Shown here one piece after another: positions 52,970 through 59,716 of a DNA stretch of 64,000 bases. This DNA is from Paenibacillus sp. OV219. Lineage in GTDB: Bacteria; Bacillota; Bacilli; Paenibacillales; Paenibacillaceae. The DNA lies in contig NZ_FOCJ01000007.1 of assembly GCF_900110075.1 (NCBI RefSeq), positions 186,001 to 250,000 on the forward strand, written 5' to 3'. Numbering within the stretch: the first letter of the stretch is position 1; every line of letters starts with the position of its first letter. A model generated the notes under the pieces. The model saw only the letters and a list, made by a program, of their open reading frames with translations, was not told the origin of the DNA and did not search any database. The position numbers were made by a program, and so were the translations under genes.

Positions 52970-54229
52970 ATGGCCAACGAATCGAGAAAAAATAAACAAC
53001 TTGCGAATATATCGCTCGGCATCATGGCGGCTGGCTTCGCTGCGACGATTCCGTTCAAGGACGGCGCGCTCGGGCTGCTTCATGTCGGCTTCGAAGCGGG
53101 CGTCATCGGCGGTTTAGCGGACTGGTTCGCCGTAACGGCGCTGTTCCGCCATCCGCTCGGCATTCCAATCCCGCACACGGCGCTGCTGCCGCGCAACCGG
53201 AAGAAGATGTCGGATGGCATCGTCCGCGTCCTGGAAGATCGGCTGCTCGCCAAAGAGAGCATGATCGAGAAGCTGAACCAGCTCGATCTCGCCGAGCAGC
53301 TGCTCCCGCCGCTGCGCCATGCGCTGCAATCGGCGGTGTACAGCGAGCGGCTGCCGCAGCTGCTCGAGAGCGCGCTGTGCAGCATCCCGGCAGACAAGGT
53401 CGTGCCGCTGCTCTCGGGCGAGATCCGCGCCGCTGCTGCGCGCATCGACCTTGAAGCGCTGCTGCGCGGCTTCCTGCACCGTGCCGTCGAGAACGGCACC
53501 GACGAGCGGCTGCTCGATCTGCTGCTCGAACGCGCCGAAGAGTGGGCCGGCACGGAGGGCATGCGCCGCGAGCTGGGCAATTCCGCGATGCAGCTGGTGA
53601 AAGGGCTGAATCTCGGCGGCCTCATGCAGTTTGCCGTCAACGCCTTTATCGGCTACCTAGATGAAGACCGGCTCGGCACGATGCTGCAGTCGTTCATCCT
53701 GAATAAGATTAACGAGCTGAAGGTGCCGGATACGCAGCGTCGTGCCACAATTATGCAGCATCTGCACAGCGGCCTCGAGATGATTATCACTCGCTTGTCC
53801 GAGACTGGTCAGCTGGATCAGCTGCGCGATGAGCTGTTGAATGCTTTTGACTTGGAAGGCGAACTGGCGCGTCTGTTCGAAACGCTTCGTGAGAAAGGCA
53901 TTGCGTTCGTGCACGATGATTCGTTCGCAGAACGCGTATGGCCGCTGCTCTCGCAGCTGGCGGACCGTTTCGAAGCGAACCGCGAGCTTGTGGCAGATGC
54001 CGAGAACTGGTTAAAAGGCCAGATCGTGCAGCTTATTGAACGCAACCACACGAGGATCGGGTCTTTCGTGCAAGAGAATCTCGACCGCCTCGACAACGAC
54101 CAGCTTGTTGAATTAATTGAAGATAAAGTCGGCCAGGATTTGCAATGGATTCGTGTCAATGGCGCGGTTTGCGGTTTCCTGATCGGCCTTGTGCTGAAGT
54201 CGATTGAGCTGATAGTCGGCGCATATTGA
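52970..54229 (+). CDS. DUF445 family membrane-associated protein
   Basis: The 419-residue protein begins with a hydrophobic region and the family signature ADWFAVTALFRHPLGIPIPHTALLPRNRKKMSDGIVRVLEDRLL. A long alpha-helical, Arg/Leu-rich body follows, and it ends in a hydrophobic helix (GAVCGFLIGLVLKSIELIVG). Related Bacillus proteins (YheB-like) are of unknown function, possibly membrane organisation. GAAGGAG precedes the ATG. It is monocistronic. GC-rich codon use is stronger in the middle third than in neighbours. Confidence 0.88.
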   Translation: MANESRKNKQLANISLGIMAAGFAATIPFKDGALGLLHVGFEAGVIGGLADWFAVTALFRHPLGIPIPHTALLPRNRKKMSDGIVRVLEDRLLAKESMIEKLNQLDLAEQLLPPLRHALQSAVYSERLPQLLESALCSIPADKVVPLLSGEIRAAAARIDLEALLRGFLHRAVENGTDERLLDLLLERAEEWAGTEGMRRELGNSAMQLVKGLNLGGLMQFAVNAFIGYLDEDRLGTMLQSFILNKINELKVPDTQRRATIMQHLHSGLEMIITRLSETGQLDQLRDELLNAFDLEGELARLFETLREKGIAFVHDDSFAERVWPLLSQLADRFEANRELVADAENWLKGQIVQLIERNHTRIGSFVQENLDRLDNDQLVELIEDKVGQDLQWIRVNGAVCGFLIGLVLKSIELIVGAY

Positions 54230-54423
54230 CCTAACATGCTCTGGACCTCTGTCAAATGCCAGCTATTTGCGAGAAACCGCGATATAGTGAGGTAGGCAGA
54301 GGATACTGGAGCAGTTCTTTGTTGTAAGCGTTATATCCACCTAACTTGGCAGGAAACGAGAGTGCACCCTCTGCGGCATTCCTTTACAAAGAGAGGTTGG
54401 GAGCGTAACATGAAGCAAGCTAA

Positions 54424-54627
54424 ATGAAACGCTGAATTTCTTTAATTAAGAAATCGGGGGAACCACTAGTAATGGCAAGCGCACGGTGAAGCATTTTTCG
54501 CCAGTTGCAGCCATTGGGGTGAATCTTGAAGGAAGCCCGGCCGCTTCGGCCTTGCAGCTCTTCAGGTAGGGCGACTCTCACGCCCGAATCCGGCAGCTAA
54601 CCTCGTAAGCGTAACCGAGAGGCGACG
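54424..54627 (+). ncRNA. ydaO-yuaA c-di-AMP riboswitch
   Basis: The conserved blocks of the ydaO class appear in order: AATCGGGGGAACCAC, then GGGGTGAATC, GGTAGGGCGACTC, CGCCCGAATCCGGCAGC, and TAACCTCGTAAGCG followed by CCGAGAGG. The variable stem between them carries a GGCCG-TTC-type hairpin. The ydaO class binds c-di-AMP and usually turns expression off. Downstream is a terminator (54671-54733) and then the KdpD-like gene, matching the known link between c-di-AMP and potassium or osmotic systems. Outer boundaries are approximate. Confidence 0.93.
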
Positions 54628-54670
54628 AATTATCGTGCATATAGACACTTTTTATAATAAATTTGTGCCT

Positions 54671-54733
54671 AGAAGCCGCGAGAGGCGTTCCTCTTCTTTA
54701 AGAGGCAGTCCCCCCCGTACAGGCTTCTTTTTT
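54671..54733 (+). terminator. Riboswitch expression-platform terminator
   Basis: AGAAGCC (54671-54677) pairs with GGCTTCT (54722-54728), with an internal CCTCTT-CTTT-AAGAGG hairpin (54690-54705), followed by TTTTT. It is the presumed switch that stops transcription before the KdpD-like gene when c-di-AMP is bound. Confidence 0.75.
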
Positions 54734-54785
54734 GTGCGCATTATAGAATTTATTAGTTCCACTTGTACAAATTTCGATAATGTTC

Positions 54786-54829
54786 CCGTGAAACGTAAGC
54801 TTTTGCCGTAAGGACGGCGACAGCCGTTT
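54786..54829 (+). repeat. Dispersed structured element, copy D
   Basis: It begins CCGTGAAACG, continues TAAGCTTTTGCC and ends GACGGCGACAGCCGTTT. It lies between the riboswitch terminator and the start of the KdpD-like gene, 79 nt before the ATG. The right arm is identical to copies A and C. Confidence 0.72.
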
Positions 54830-54908
54830 ACATTTGGTTCAAGGCAATAGTTTTACAAAGTTTGGGAAAGTTTAGTTTATAGGTGTAGGAAGGAAGGCGA
54901 AGTTTGTT

Positions 54909-57248
54909 ATGGCTGGTTACCGCCGTAAAACCCCTGAGGAATTGCTATTATCCATCTCCAAAATCCATCGCGGACGTCTGAAAGTGTACATTGGTGCTGT
55001 TAGCGGTTCTGGCAAAACCTATCACATGCTGCGCGAGGGCCAATCGCTGAAGCAGCAGGGGATTGAGGTTGCCGTCTGTGCGGTGTCGACGATGCGCCGC
55101 CCGGAAACGGTAGAGCAGCTCGCAGATTTGGAACGGATTCCAAGCATTCACTGGTATAAAGGCGAAGAAGAGAAGAAGGATCTTAATCTTGATGCGATAC
55201 TGGAACGTAATCCGGAGGTGCTGCTTGTTGACGGGCTGGCGCATAAGAATCGTCCGGATGCTAAGTTCCCGACTCGTCTTGAGGATATTACTTTTCTGCT
55301 CAGCCATGGCATCAGCATCATAACGACTGTCAATGTGTACGAACTGGACGGCGTCACGGAGCTTGCTCAGAAGCTGACCGGCATTGAGGCGGAATGTACC
55401 GTCACGGCCGATGCGCTTGAGCTTGCGGACGAAGTGCGGCTCATTGACGTTTCGCCGGAGACCATATTAAATCGGCTGAATGAGGGGCGTCTATGTAATA
55501 TTAAAGACCCAGGTCTGCTGAAACGCGGCAATCTCGGCAAGCTAAGAGAGCTGTCTCTGCGGCTGATGGCGGAAGGGGTCAACGAATCGCTGGAGAAGTA
55601 TCGCGAGGAGCAGGGCTTCATCGGCCCATCCGGCGCGGCAGAGCGGATTCTTGTCGCCGCGCAGTATCACTGGAACGGCTCGATTTATATCCGCCGTGGC
55701 CAGCAAATTGCGAAGCGGCTTGGCGGTGACTTGCAGGTCGTCGTCTTCACCGATTCGAGCCAAGAGCCTACGAAGGAACGTGAAGCGTTCAAGCGCTCTA
55801 TTTTGAAGCTGACAGAGAAATTGGATGCGGGCTTCCGCGAAATATCGGTCGGCAATCGCAGGCAAGTTCCGCCTGCGCTCATTAAATATGCGATGCTCAT
55901 CAACGCGACGCGCATCGTTATGGGGCATTCGAAGCAGACGAGATCGCAGGAGTTCTGGCAAGGCTCGATTGCAGGCTCCGTACTGAAGCAGGTGCGCAAC
56001 ATTGACCTGTTCTTTATGGCGGACCGCGCTGAGCACGAAGGCGAGCGCGTATTACCGGCGAAGCGCTCGGTGTCGAAGCAGGCTTCGCATTCGGAGCCTT
56101 ACCGCAGACTTAGCGCGCAAGAGGTCGAGAAGAAGATCGAGCGCATTCGCCGCGGTACGTTCAAGGTATACATCGGCGCAGCGCCTGGCGCGGGCAAGTC
56201 CTATATGATGCTGCGCGAAGGCAATGATCTGTTGCGCAAAGATATCGACGTTGTCATTGGCCTCATGGAGGCGCATGACCGCGCAGAGACGCTGCAGCAA
56301 GCAGGCAAGCTGGAGATCCTGCCGCGCAAAGTGATTGATGCGGAGAAGGGCATTACGGAGATGGATGTCGACGCCATTATTGCGCGCAATCCGGAAGTTG
56401 TGCTGATCGACGAGCTGCCGCATACGAATGCGCCCGGCAGCCACAATGCGAAGCGTTATGAAGATGTGCAGCAAATTCTCGAAGCGGGCATTTCCGTTAT
56501 CGCAACGTTTAATGTGCAGCATCTCGAAAGCTTGAAGGATGCCGTAGAGCAAATTACCGGAACGAGGATCGCGGAGACGGTACCGGACAGCATCCTGCGG
56601 CTTGCCGATGAGGTCGAGCTAATCGACGTCACGCCGATTACGCTGCAGCAGAGAATGCGGGATGGCCTTATTTATAAGAAAGATGACGTGGAGCAGGCGA
56701 TGACTGGTTTGTTCAAGACAGGCAATCTAATCGCATTGCGTGAGCTTGCATTGCGAGAACTTGCCGATGACGTAGATGAGCGGCTGGAATCGTGGGAACG
56801 CGGCGGCTCGATGCGCGGACCTTGGCGTCGCCAAGAATCGATCTTTATTGCGGTGACTGTAGGTGAAACAGCAGAACGGCTGATCCGCCGCGGCTTCCGG
56901 ATAGCGCATCGCCTGAAAGCAGCATGGCATGTCCACTACGTGCAGACGAGCGGCGAGCGAGGTCCTGCAGTTGATAAGCGGATCGAGGCGCTGCAGGAGC
57001 TGACAGCAAGACTCGGCGGTACGTTCGAGGTTGAGCAAGCGGCTTCCAAGAACGCCGTACCTAATGCGCTGCTGGCAAAAGCGAATGGACTGAAGAGCAC
57101 CCAGATCGTTCTTGGCCAGTCGCGAAGAAGCATTTGGAGCAAGCTTTCGAACCGCCCTGTTGTGGAAACGGTGCTGCGTGAAGGGCGTCATATGGATGTC
57201 CTCGTCGTGGCGGACTTTAATCCGAATATCGCGCTTGGTGAGGAATAG
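54909..57248 (+). CDS. Tandem KdpD-sensor/USP protein without histidine kinase
   Basis: The 779-residue protein is built from two similar halves. Each has a KdpD N-terminal domain: Walker A GAVSGSGKT at 29-37 and GAAPGAGKS at 423-431, with VLLVDGLAHKN and VVLIDELPHTN as the Walker-B-like part. A universal-stress-protein-like domain follows in each (about 245-385 and 640-770, with MGHSKQTRSQEFWQGS and LGQSRRSIWSKL). The first half has lost the Asp-Glu pair (LVDG versus LIDE). Membrane helices, GAF, HisKA and HATPase parts of KdpD are absent. It sits under a c-di-AMP riboswitch, so it probably senses c-di-AMP or potassium state (inference). The ribosome site, GGAAGG, is about 13 bases upstream. 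Confidence 0.88.
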   Translation: MAGYRRKTPEELLLSISKIHRGRLKVYIGAVSGSGKTYHMLREGQSLKQQGIEVAVCAVSTMRRPETVEQLADLERIPSIHWYKGEEEKKDLNLDAILERNPEVLLVDGLAHKNRPDAKFPTRLEDITFLLSHGISIITTVNVYELDGVTELAQKLTGIEAECTVTADALELADEVRLIDVSPETILNRLNEGRLCNIKDPGLLKRGNLGKLRELSLRLMAEGVNESLEKYREEQGFIGPSGAAERILVAAQYHWNGSIYIRRGQQIAKRLGGDLQVVVFTDSSQEPTKEREAFKRSILKLTEKLDAGFREISVGNRRQVPPALIKYAMLINATRIVMGHSKQTRSQEFWQGSIAGSVLKQVRNIDLFFMADRAEHEGERVLPAKRSVSKQASHSEPYRRLSAQEVEKKIERIRRGTFKVYIGAAPGAGKSYMMLREGNDLLRKDIDVVIGLMEAHDRAETLQQAGKLEILPRKVIDAEKGITEMDVDAIIARNPEVVLIDELPHTNAPGSHNAKRYEDVQQILEAGISVIATFNVQHLESLKDAVEQITGTRIAETVPDSILRLADEVELIDVTPITLQQRMRDGLIYKKDDVEQAMTGLFKTGNLIALRELALRELADDVDERLESWERGGSMRGPWRRQESIFIAVTVGETAERLIRRGFRIAHRLKAAWHVHYVQTSGERGPAVDKRIEALQELTARLGGTFEVEQAASKNAVPNALLAKANGLKSTQIVLGQSRRSIWSKLSNRPVVETVLREGRHMDVLVVADFNPNIALGEE

Positions 57249-57348: not shown

Positions 57349-57377
57349 TTGAAACAGTGTGTATTTCTTGATAAAAT
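57349..57377 (+). promoter_or_regulatory. Promoter of the second amino-acid importer
   Basis: TTGAAA (57349-57354) and TAAAAT (57372-57377) are 17 bp apart, with TG one base before the -10 (extended type). It lies 38 bp before the ATG. Confidence 0.72.
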
Positions 57378-57414: not shown

Positions 57415-58254
57415 ATGAAGAAGTGGTTAGCGTCAGCAATTATCACATTAATGGCTGTAGTAATCGTAACAGGCTGCGGTGCAAAGAATAATGAAAACAC
57501 AGGCAGTGAAGCAAGCGGCAATAACGCAAGCAACGCAGGGGATACAAAAACATACAAGTTTGCAACTGATGCAAGCTATGCACCGATGGAGTTTATGGAC
57601 AAAGACGAGTTGAAAGGCTTCGACATCGAGTTCCTGGATGCCGTTATGAAACAAGCTGGTCTAAAGTACGAAGTTGCAAACACAGGCTGGGATGCAATGC
57701 TTGAGAGCGTTAAGCAAGGTACAGAGTACCAAGGCGGCGTTTCCAGCGTATCCATTACAGACGACCGCAAACAAACATACGACTATTCCATGCCGTATTT
57801 TGAGTCGCGCAACGTAATCATGGTTAAAGAAGGCAGCGAAATCAAGAGTGCAACGGACTTGAAGGACAAGAAGGTTGCCGTTCAAACGGGTACGACAGCT
57901 GATATTCTCATGACGAAGATTATGGGTAACGGCAACACGGATTTGAAGAAGTTCGATAGCAACGCTGTAGCGCTGATGGAGCTTGATCAAGGCGGCGCGG
58001 ACGCTGTTGTTGCGGATATCGCAATTGTAAATTACTATATTCAGACTAACCCGAAGAAAAAGTATATCAGCATTGAAGACAACACGAACTTCTCTCCTGA
58101 GTACTATGGTCTTCTGTTCCCGAAAGGCAGCGATTTAGCGGCAAAGGTGGACCCTGCAATTAAAGCCATCATTGATAATGGCACATATACAGAACTTTAT
58201 AAGAAATGGTTCGGTGAAGAGCCGAATACAGCTAACTTGTTAAACGCGAAGTAA
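57415..58254 (+). CDS. Amino-acid-binding lipoprotein (GlnH/ArtP-like)
   Basis: The signal peptide MKKWLASAIITLMAVVIVTGC ends in lipobox VTGC (Cys21). An Asn/Ser-rich tether follows, then a family-3 fold: YKFATDASYAPMEFMDKDELKGFDIEFLDAVMK, DDRKQTYDYSMPYFESRNVIMV, AVQTGTTADILM. These bind polar amino acids such as glutamine or arginine; the ligand is not certain. GGGGGAC precedes the ATG. Codon use is again biased, suggesting high expression. An attenuating hairpin separates it from the permease. Confidence 0.92.
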   Translation: MKKWLASAIITLMAVVIVTGCGAKNNENTGSEASGNNASNAGDTKTYKFATDASYAPMEFMDKDELKGFDIEFLDAVMKQAGLKYEVANTGWDAMLESVKQGTEYQGGVSSVSITDDRKQTYDYSMPYFESRNVIMVKEGSEIKSATDLKDKKVAVQTGTTADILMTKIMGNGNTDLKKFDSNAVALMELDQGGADAVVADIAIVNYYIQTNPKKKYISIEDNTNFSPEYYGLLFPKGSDLAAKVDPAIKAIIDNGTYTELYKKWFGEEPNTANLLNAK

Positions 58255-58265
58255 TGGATTTGCTG

Positions 58266-58295
58266 AAGGCATGCGTTCTGACGCATGCCTTTTTG
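58266..58295 (+). terminator. Attenuating hairpin between binding protein and permease
   Basis: AAGGCATGCGT (58266-58276) pairs with ACGCATGCCTT (58281-58291) around TCTG, followed by TTT then GG. It is likely a partial terminator that lowers permease and ATPase expression relative to the binding protein. Confidence 0.75.
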
Positions 58296-58331
58296 GTTGA
58301 CCATTCGATATGGATTGAAAGGATGGGCAGG

Positions 58332-58988
58332 ATGGATTTTAAGTTTGATATTATTTGGGATTATGCTCCTCTTTTCTGGAAAGGGACGCTGTACACGATC
58401 CTCATTTCCATTTCAGGCGTCGTGCTAGGCTCGATATTGGGTCTGTTCGTCGGCTTTGGCAAAATGTCGCGCCGCTGGTATCTACGCTGGCCGATGCAGT
58501 CGTATATTAATTTCTTCCGCGGAACGCCGCTGCTTGTGCAAATCTACATTGTGCACTTCGGACTGATGCCGCTCCTTATCGGGAAGACGAATTCGATCGC
58601 TGCGGCGATTACCGCGCTGACCTTGAATGCGGCGGCTTACACGGCAGAGATCTATCGCGCCGGTATTCAGTCGATTGACAAGGGTCAGACTGAAGCTGCT
58701 CACTCGCTTGGGATGACGCACTTCCAAACGATGCGTTTTATCATCCTGCCGCAAGCCATTAGACGGATGATTCCGGCATTCGGCAACGAATTTATTGTGC
58801 TCGTGAAGGACTCGTCCTTGACCGCGCTTATTACAGCACCTGAAATTATGTACTGGGCCGGCGTTATGAAAGGCCAGTATATTCGGATTTGGGAGCCGTA
58901 CTTGACGGCTGCGTTCATCTATTTCATCCTTACTTATTCCTTGAGCAAGCTGCTTAATTGGATAGAAAGGAAGGCGCAACCCCTATGA
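58332..58988 (+). CDS. Amino-acid ABC transporter permease
   Basis: This 218-residue permease opens [38 protein letters not shown]. It has [22 protein letters not shown] and the EAA loop [36 protein letters not shown]. The ATG at 58332 is preferred (AAAGG nine bases upstream); the long frame from 58254 crosses the hairpin. The stop overlaps the ATPase start (ATGA). It is part of the importer with the genes at 57415 and 58985. Confidence 0.92.
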
Positions 58989-59716
58989 GTTCGATTATTG
59001 AAATTAAAGACTTGTCGAAAGCGTATGGCAGTAATGTCGTATTGAAAAATATCGACGTGACTGTTAACAGCCAAGAGGTTGTCGTCGTCATCGGTCCGTC
59101 CGGATCGGGTAAATCGACGTTCTTGCGCTGCATTAACCTGCTCGAAACGCCAACTGGCGGTGAGATTATTATTGAAGGCCAGTCGCTGATGGATAAGAAA
59201 ACGAGCATTACGAGCGTCCGCGCCGACGTCGGCATGGTGTTCCAACAGTTCAATCTGTTCCCTCACCTGACGGTGCTCGACAACATTACGCTTGCGCCGA
59301 TTCAAATCCGCAAATTGCCGGTAGCGAAGGCACGCGAGAAAGCTACGGAGCTGCTGAAGAAAGTCGGCCTGTCCGAAAAGGCAAGCATGTATCCGCCGTC
59401 GCTCTCCGGCGGCCAGCAGCAGCGTGTCGCGATTGCCAGGGCGCTTGCAATGGAGCCGAAGATTATGCTGTTTGACGAACCGACATCGGCGCTTGACCCG
59501 GAGATGGTCGGCGAGGTGCTTGCCGTTATGAAGCAGCTGGCGAAGGAAGGCATGACGATGGTTGTCGTCACGCACGAAATGGGCTTTGCCCGCGAGGTTG
59601 GCGACCGTGTGATCTTCATGGAGCAGGGCAACATCGTGGAGCAAGGGCCGCCGGAGCAAATCTTCGAGCGTCCACAGCAGGAGCGCACGAAGTCGTTCTT
59701 GTCGAAGGTGTTGTAA
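58985..59716 (+). CDS. Amino-acid ABC transporter ATPase (GlnQ type)
   Basis: Walker [22 protein letters not shown]-loop [16 protein letters not shown], signature [17 protein letters not shown] and Walker [16 protein letters not shown] are all intact, with H-loop [14 protein letters not shown]. It powers the importer. GGAAGG lies 11 bases before the ATG. It is the last gene of the operon and is followed by a strong terminator. Length (243 residues) is normal. Confidence 0.95.

Follow-up and report, generated by a model that had tools for sequence, protein, structure and literature searches.

What does a KdpD-like protein do when it is encoded apart from the kdp operon and behind a cyclic di-AMP (c-di-AMP) riboswitch of its own? 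The question is raised by a gene in a 64,000-nucleotide (nt) stretch of the soil bacterium Paenibacillus sp. OV219 (GCF_900110075.1, NZ_FOCJ01000007.1, positions 186,001 to 250,000, forward strand; here called the window), whose 779-residue product contains two KdpD domains (units 1 and 2), each followed by a universal stress protein domain (USP1 and USP2). An earlier note, made from the letters alone, had described it as a double KdpD/USP protein without kinase. The N-terminal domain of KdpD is an atypical serine kinase that phosphorylates S162 of KdpB and shuts the pump (PMC11018627); this role was published in 2024, and the switching mechanism was left open by its authors. Tentatively, and with rather less than even confidence, we read the solitary protein as a c-di-AMP-repressed, trans-acting modulator in K+ control that has lost the KdpB kinase role.

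The OV219 genome contained only two proteins with KdpD domains, both of them doubled. Its single KdpA match lay on contig C30 and the solitary gene on contig C20, in agreement with the earlier statement that no kdpFABC genes are nearby. A search of the genome for kdpFABC located a C30 cluster with kdpA-kdpB-kdpC, a kdp-linked doubled KdpD (locus L066, 8972-11323), a KdpD-type histidine kinase in a separate open reading frame (ORF) of 566 residues with DUF4118, GAF, HisKA, and HATPase domains, and a KdpE-like response regulator (283 bits with the KdpE model, under its cut-off of 325). The KdpB of OV219 has the TGES motif, and the c-di-AMP riboswitch family RF00379 was not found on C30. The solitary gene therefore coexists with a split Kdp system. 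Across the genus, a second doubled KdpD was present in 13 of 22 genomes, with 78 to 100% identity to the window protein. These 13 solitary proteins formed one clade (support, 100/100), and the linked copies of the same 13 genomes formed a separate clade, with a histidine kinase and a KdpE-like regulator in all 13 clusters. Recent duplication of each genome's own kdp-linked gene was considered and rejected: a joint clade of the 13 solitary and 13 linked proteins cost 208 log-likelihood units and was rejected in the approximately unbiased (AU) test (p-AU, 3.8e-57; LG+G4, two trees compared). Beyond what the earlier note proposed, these sequences point to a conserved clade that is separate from the kdp-linked paralogue and in which the kinase unit has changed.

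RF00379 was the sole RNA family in the window at Rfam gathering scores, and the match spanned the full covariance model (1 to 134 of 134). It lay upstream of the solitary gene on the same strand in 12 of 12 solitary relatives and in the window (13/13); because both recur throughout the clade, the pairing of riboswitch and gene is not due to chance. Between aptamer and ORF stands a terminator-like hairpin, with a folding energy of −20.7 kcal/mol for the sequence 5' of its T run. The same design or a near variant, with 5 or 6 T, was found 91 to 101 nt 3' of the aptamer at all 13 solitary loci, which bears out the riboswitch with terminator named in the earlier note. The hairpin was unlisted by a general terminator scan, which admits loops of 3 to 8 only. 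A promoter-like site just 5' of the aptamer is weak, as four such sites were present in the region and 2.5 were expected. The hairpin is expected to be the expression platform of an OFF switch, a sign suggested by the hairpin itself and by analogy with the kdp riboswitch of Bacillus thuringiensis, where c-di-AMP promotes termination (PMC6488665).

The domain make-up was examined next to that of known KdpD proteins. Pfam assigned two PF02702 KdpD stretches (sum, 488.4 bits) and a Usp match (27.4 bits; cut-off, 24). The best NCBIfam match of the whole protein was NF038185 (703 bits; cut-off, 550), named for a KdpD-like non-kinase potassium sensor (KdpD_non_kinase), a model of 373 positions to which each half aligned at 1 to 372; the two units scored 411.5 and 297.1 bits, each below 550, so that a pass needs both summed. 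Fold searches matched the KdpD N-domain (2r8r; E, 9.1e-20) and the KdpD USP domain (7ji4; E, 1.7e-7). The predicted structure (pLDDT, 75.1; pTM, 0.37) was fair per domain, with unreliable packing of the units. No transmembrane, GAF, HisKA, or HATPase families were among the Pfam matches of the ORF up to an E value of 0.01. The doubled, soluble architecture that had been proposed is therefore sound. The words "without kinase" hold for the histidine-kinase part only; taken further, they misread the architecture, because the KdpD N-domain phosphorylates KdpB and unit 2 keeps Walker A and B. In Escherichia coli KdpD, D109 and E110 of this domain are both required, and E110A abolishes KdpB phosphorylation (PMC11018627).

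The two units differ at this glutamate, in the window protein and far beyond it. The set comprised 114 doubled ORFs (108 distinct): the window and regions fetched by place gave 37, and 80 scanned loci gave 77. Three of the 80 loci (L174, L178, and L182) were omitted, having the units on separate ORFs or fragments, and single-unit ORFs were uncounted. The unit-1 Walker B Glu was absent in 100 of the 108 proteins, a sample biased towards close doubled relatives: out of at least 580 relatives, the scan covered the best 80, and an intact unit 2 is favored by the peptides that seeded it. Gly was most common at the position (80 proteins), followed by Ser and Glu (8 each), Asp (5), Ala and His (3 each), and Arg (1). 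The eight proteins with Glu in both units belonged to one outer group (Alicyclobacillus, Sporolactobacillus, and metagenome-assembled genomes [MAGs]). The rest of the site was kept: the unit-1 equivalents of E. coli K37, D109, and R190 were present in 108 of 108, as was a GK[TS] Walker A in both units. At the adenine pair W39/R190, Arg occurred in both units of every protein, and Trp was replaced by Tyr in all unit 1s and by Tyr (105) or Phe (3) in unit 2. Unit 2 kept its Walker B Glu in 106 of 108 proteins, the exceptions (L094, Asn; L096, Asp) both lying in the solitary clade. A tree of representatives included 20 of the other 100 proteins, and their unit-1 sequences formed one clade on a long stem (0.7 changes per column; bootstrap support not fully settled). 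Unit 1 is therefore predicted to be a conserved pseudokinase that has kept its ATP site. Two other arrangements were seen. In Paenibacillus sp. N3.4 (L178, 6495-8800) each unit has a gene of its own; the two genes overlap and retain DG and DE, respectively. A MAG contig (L180, 2938-7520) carries several short KdpD genes in a row, namely, a doubled one (762 residues) and two single ones (387 and 404 residues).

A comparison of evolutionary rates set the solitary proteins apart from their linked paralogues. Nonsynonymous divergence (dN) was compared over 78 pairs from the 13 genomes with both paralogues, with ranges from 30 column resamples; synonymous sites were near saturation, and synonymous divergence (dS) was not finite in 0 to 25 of the 78 pairs, according to the domain and the set, so that dN is the safer measure. 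Three domains were slower in the solitary clade: unit 1 (dN, 0.066 versus 0.110; ratio, 0.60 [0.47 to 0.78]), USP1 (0.100 versus 0.168; 0.60 [0.40 to 0.83]), and USP2 (0.190 versus 0.281; 0.67 [0.54 to 0.85]). Unit 2 alone was faster (0.150 versus 0.096; 1.57 [1.24 to 1.94]), with a dN/dS of 0.129 in the solitary and 0.072 in the linked proteins. Pair by pair, solitary identity was below linked identity in 74 of 78 cases for unit 2, compared to 0 for unit 1, 2 for USP1, and 7 for USP2. Selection thus appears to have shifted away from unit 2 and onto unit 1 and the two USPs, and because of this shift the solitary protein is most likely not a KdpB kinase.

The tree bears on the descent of the gene. 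The nearest relatives of the solitary clade were L113 (Cohnella), then L078, L144, and L150 (Paenibacillus), then L116 (Siminovitchia), and RF00379 was present in the fetched kdp locus of four of the five (all but L144). In the simplest history, a riboswitch-led kdp operon would have lost its pump genes, or had them replaced by an operon of the KdpE type, and the solitary gene would be its survivor. The leaders themselves are weak proof of such an origin: the 13 solitary leaders had mean alignment scores of 163 with kdp leaders labelled as lacking KdpE, 156 with seven other leaders, and 153 with kdp leaders with KdpE, values that lie close together (101 with the four other OV219 leaders). A functionless, drifting relic of that lost operon would fit the kdp loci of the relatives and the loosened unit 2, but unit 1, USP1, and USP2 are more constrained than in the linked gene, and the open frame, riboswitch, and neighbors are kept in 13 genomes; we regard a relic as highly improbable.

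What changed within unit 2 was then assessed at columns conserved in at least 95% of 87 nonsolitary, nonoutgroup proteins, 83 of which had a kdp gene in the fetched stretch and 4 of which (L148, L157, L165, and L166) had none; a column was scored as lost when less than half of the clade had the common residue. The solitary clade lost 12 of 109 unit-2 columns, compared to 1/101, 1/103, 0/99, and 0/101 in four control clades. Its losses elsewhere were 2/62 in unit 1, 0/28 in USP1, and 0/20 in USP2, and those of the controls were at most 1, 0, and 2, respectively. Lost columns whose common residue is also that of E. coli KdpD include Val35, Thr38, Tyr85, Lys123, Asn151, and Arg163. A second KdpB kinase, activated by c-di-AMP and inhibiting KdpFABC as does the short KdpD/Usp protein of Deinococcus geothermalis (DgKdpD), with the riboswitch matching kinase and pump levels, would draw on several observations: DgKdpD, for which E. 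coli KdpFABC served as a substrate, phosphorylates KdpB more strongly with c-di-AMP (PMC11018627), unit 2 retains GKS, DE, and Arg, the TGES motif is available in the OV219 KdpB, and kdp clusters of relatives hold a doubled short KdpD with a c-di-AMP riboswitch upstream. The 12 losses, 8 of them in the window protein, speak against phosphorylation of KdpB S162 by the solitary protein. Moreover, unit 2 is the only domain that evolves faster than in the linked paralogue, its catalytic Glu is lost in 2 of 13 solitary proteins (0 of 95 others), the kdp cluster already has its own doubled KdpD, and an inhibitor gene that is off exactly when inhibition is needed is a poor fit away from the operon. 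We consider a second KdpB kinase unlikely.

Alternatively, unit 2 may be active on a different substrate, such as a regulator or some other transporter of K+ or osmolytes. The catalytic residues are mostly kept, selection is still purifying, and the new residues are fixed rather than scattered (Lys543 in 13/13 and Asp593 in 11/13 solitary proteins). Against such retargeting, there is no candidate substrate, the Glu is missing in the two proteins noted above, and the most conserved parts of the solitary clade are unit 1 and USP1, not unit 2. It is a minority possibility in our judgment.

The earlier note also suggested a soluble c-di-AMP or K+ signalling hub. The link to K+ and c-di-AMP signalling stands, and a role as a c-di-AMP receptor is not established. 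The published c-di-AMP motif of the KdpD USP domain, (A/G/C)XSXSX2N(Y/F) (PMC8214093), is incomplete in the window protein, with two of five positions kept in USP2 and one of five in USP1 (spacing from the first strand). The short KdpD of Deinococcus radiodurans, a congener of the c-di-AMP-responsive D. geothermalis protein, also fails it (1/5), which is only a hint that the motif may miss short KdpDs; because of this, no conclusion against c-di-AMP binding is drawn. D. geothermalis was absent from the 21 Deinococcus records matched in the plasmid collection. In the 100 proteins of two Paenibacillaceae-type groups, the first loop of USP1 kept Q252, Y253, and N256 without exception, H254 in 95, and W255 in 93 (Ile in 6 solitary proteins); this QYHWN loop, unlike the published motif, possibly marks another ligand pocket. 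The single short KdpD of Bacillus anthracis binds c-di-AMP, and its overproduction in truncated form in a c-di-AMP-accumulating strain reduced the c-di-AMP level in the cell and increased the expression of kdp and ktr (PMC11302148). By this precedent, and with two USP domains per chain, the solitary protein might mainly bind and buffer c-di-AMP and so sharpen the switch. The incomplete motif in both USPs, the conserved ATP-binding unit 1, which a sink does not need, and the finding that loss of kdpD also raised kdpB/C and ktrD expression (PMC11302148) make a sink improbable.

The OFF switch, together with weaker constraint on the kinase unit and stronger constraint on the pseudokinase and the USP domains, favors a trans-acting partner over a second KdpB kinase. 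Under the modulator reading that we tentatively prefer, the ancestor would have been a doubled short KdpD of a kdpFABC cluster, in which unit 1 is a pseudokinase and unit 2, as the KdpB serine kinase, shuts off the pump. The terminator would form when c-di-AMP, and with it K+, is high; at low c-di-AMP (K+ shortage), the gene would be transcribed. Since an OFF riboswitch would allow the protein to be made only at low c-di-AMP and K+, it would be expected to help uptake and not to stop it. Through unit 1 and USP1, the protein would bind one of two partners, either the kdp-linked doubled KdpD or the separate histidine kinase of the KdpD type, and such binding would favor K+ uptake while c-di-AMP is low. 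A more specific proposal, which we hold to be rather doubtful, is a c-di-AMP-repressed anti-kinase, i.e., a pseudokinase joined to a disarmed or retargeted serine kinase, whose dead unit would at low c-di-AMP join the kdp-linked doubled KdpD and free KdpFABC from phosphorylation. If true, the KdpD family would gain what is, as far as is known, its first regulatory pseudokinase, and the Kdp pump would be under a second layer of control gated by c-di-AMP.

Several observations weigh against the modulator reading. Unit 2 keeps Walker A, Asp501, and Arg582, and Glu in 11 of 13 proteins; with a purifying dN/dS, it may be an active kinase. The window protein differs at only those 8 of the 12 lost columns, with four marked changes (Tyr478→Ala, Asn543→Lys, Arg555→Ala, and Lys593→Asp) and four mild ones, and in the clade as a whole several of the 12 are likewise mild (I/V, V/A, T/S, and L/M). 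Some excess of fixed unit-2 changes is expected because the solitary stem is longer (0.23 changes per column, compared to 0.19, 0.14, and 0.05 in three control clades), and solitary unit 1 also lost columns, at 2 of 62 (controls, 0 to 1 of 55 to 60). Interaction with a partner is a proposal, and the two-unit model has a pTM of 0.37. In B. thuringiensis, kdp transcription was unaffected by deletion of the single truncated kdpD (PMC6488665), which argues against a transcriptional effect there. In favor of the reading, the solitary gene occurred in the genus only in genomes with a DUF4118 histidine kinase above cut-off (13/13), which was found in 2 of 8 kdp-bearing genomes without it, but the Fisher p of 0.0005 overstates the case, as the 13 form one clade and the genomes are not independent. 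Finally, two other Paenibacillus lineages (L148/L157 and L165/L166) have doubled copies whose fetched stretches contain no kdp gene; RF00379 was not found in these four stretches at its gathering score, so that such copies are not always riboswitch controlled.

The clade nevertheless points to what may be an undescribed layer of K+ control. It amounts to a natural experiment, in which a riboswitch-headed version of the protein appears to have had its active unit freed from an old constraint and its dead unit held tighter. With two paralogues in one genome, the role of the dead unit and that of c-di-AMP in synthesis and activity are directly testable.

The neighbors of the solitary gene are conserved (Table 1). 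The downstream amino-acid ATP-binding cassette (ABC) transporter was assigned from best NCBIfam matches that were under their cut-offs. Its cotranscription with the solitary gene is not favored, because it has a promoter-like site of its own and one relative, L072, has no transporter at that place. In five stretches fetched around transporter relatives in genomes without the solitary gene, no clean empty site was found, and no DUF445 match above 38% identity was near those transporter relatives. In one close relative (L068; G001 C1:1777921-1779562), KdpA matches lay in two overlapping frames, and the solitary KdpD was intact.

Table 1. Coordinates of features in the window and, where a locus label is given, in other fetched loci
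Feature	Position	Strand	Remarks
DUF445 protein, conserved upstream neighbor	52970-54229	+	Adjoins the gene in 12/12 solitary relatives
Promoter-like site TTTACA-17-TAACAT, just 5' of aptamer	54383-54411	+	Consensus scan, 9/12
c-di-AMP riboswitch aptamer (RF00379, ydaO/yuaA)	54420-54626	+	89.1 bits; cut-off, 38; E, 1.6e-19
Terminator-like hairpin (AGAAGCC...GGCTTCT stem, inner CCTCTT/AAGAGG stem, then TTTTTT)	54671-54733	+	Predicted expression platform
Doubled short KdpD (KdpD-USP-KdpD-USP), 779 aa	54909-57248	+	Solitary clade
Unit 1 KdpD domain, aa 20-235	54966-55613	+	Predicted pseudokinase; Walker A retained, DG at Walker B
Unit 1 Walker B, Asp108-Gly109	55230-55235	+	Gly at position of E. 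coli KdpD E110
USP1, aa 245-372	55641-56024	+	QYHWN-type first loop, strongly conserved
Unit 2 KdpD domain, aa 413-630	56145-56798	+	GKS (Walker A), DE (Walker B), and Arg582 retained; faster evolution in this clade
Unit 2 Walker B, Asp501-Glu502	56409-56414	+
USP2, aa 643-768	56835-57212	+	Equivalents of S. aureus A242 and Y271 kept; S244→T, S246→G, N249→A
Promoter-like site TTGAAA-17-TAAAAT, before ABC transporter	57349-57377
GlnH/GlnP/GlnQ-like amino-acid ABC transporter, conserved downstream neighbor	57415-59716	+	11/12 solitary relatives, not L072
Doubled KdpD, no kdp gene in fetched stretch	L148 6501-8807
Doubled KdpD, no kdp gene in fetched stretch	L157 6501-8783
Doubled KdpD, no kdp gene in fetched stretch	L165 6321-8828
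Doubled KdpD, no kdp gene in fetched stretch	L166 6501-8828
ORF with ...E[LC]F.FD... start	L101 1243-1695
ORF with ...E[LC]F.FD... start	L093 2452-2847
ORF with ...E[LC]F.FD... start	L103 1483-1935
ORF with ...E[LC]F.FD... start	L089 9913-10338
ORF with ...E[LC]F.FD... start	L097 11308-11781

Other RF00379 riboswitches were also observed. The four others of the OV219 genome (L079, L080, L081, and L082) stand near genes for a 3D/G5-domain protein, a metallo-beta-lactamase-fold protein, an NlpC/P60 hydrolase, and a LysM-3D protein; judged by the nearest downstream gene, the solitary KdpD is the only obvious K+ gene among the RF00379 riboswitches of OV219. In the transcriptome of Paenibacillus riograndensis, the sole RF00379 given stands before a cell-wall hydrolase (PMC5670726). 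Tandem c-di-AMP riboswitches were present in the kdp loci L078 (1929-2387), L113 (541-1008), L150 (635-1126), and L106 (1597-2072).

The kdp riboswitch and KdpDE have been called mutually exclusive (PMC6488665). Six Paenibacillus genomes (L089, L093, L095, L097, L101, and L103) counter that exclusivity: a same-strand c-di-AMP riboswitch lies 5' of kdpFABC, and the cluster also encodes a KdpD-type histidine kinase and a KdpE-like regulator. A simple scan found a T-run hairpin after the aptamer in three of the six (L095, L097, and L103). In five of the six, an ORF with a shared start motif lies between riboswitch and kdpA (Table 1), and a similar frame seems to precede kdp in L066.

Among the matches listed in open-access titles and abstract openings, there was neither a doubled KdpD-USP protein nor a c-di-AMP riboswitch before a lone KdpD, and the terms "two KdpD" and "duplicat" do not occur in the main text of PMC11018627. 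The solitary protein is compared here with the known proteins that come nearest to it. DgKdpD (PMC11018627) resembles the solitary protein in combining a KdpD N-domain and a USP domain with no membrane or histidine-kinase part, and its Walker A/B and Arg are retained in solitary unit 2. It has one unit, whereas the solitary protein has two, the first without the catalytic Glu and the second in a clade with 12 family-conserved columns lost. Unlike what would be expected of a short KdpD serine kinase of that report, the solitary gene is not encoded with kdpFABC (C20 versus C30), and it has its own riboswitch. The C30 cluster is like the split Kdp arrangement of the same report, in which a short serine-kinase KdpD accompanies a separate transmembrane/GAF/histidine kinase protein, but its short KdpD is doubled. 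That kdp-linked protein (L066) shares the four-domain layout and a unit 1 without the catalytic Glu (DA) with the solitary protein; unlike it, it lies after kdpC and before the DUF4118 histidine kinase and KdpE-like regulator, no RF00379 was found on its contig, and its unit 2 is strongly conserved. The USP domain of Staphylococcus aureus KdpD with c-di-AMP (7ji4; PMC8214093) matches the solitary protein in USP fold, and the equivalents of A242 and Y271 are kept in USP2; those of S244, S246, and N249 are changed, and the USP1 loop is different. The truncated KdpD of B. thuringiensis (365 residues; PMC6488665) is likewise short, under a c-di-AMP riboswitch, and without a histidine kinase part. 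There, the riboswitch heads kdpFABC with kdpD downstream, and KdpE is absent; in OV219, by contrast, the riboswitch heads a doubled KdpD alone, in a genome that also encodes a KdpD-type histidine kinase and a KdpE-like regulator.

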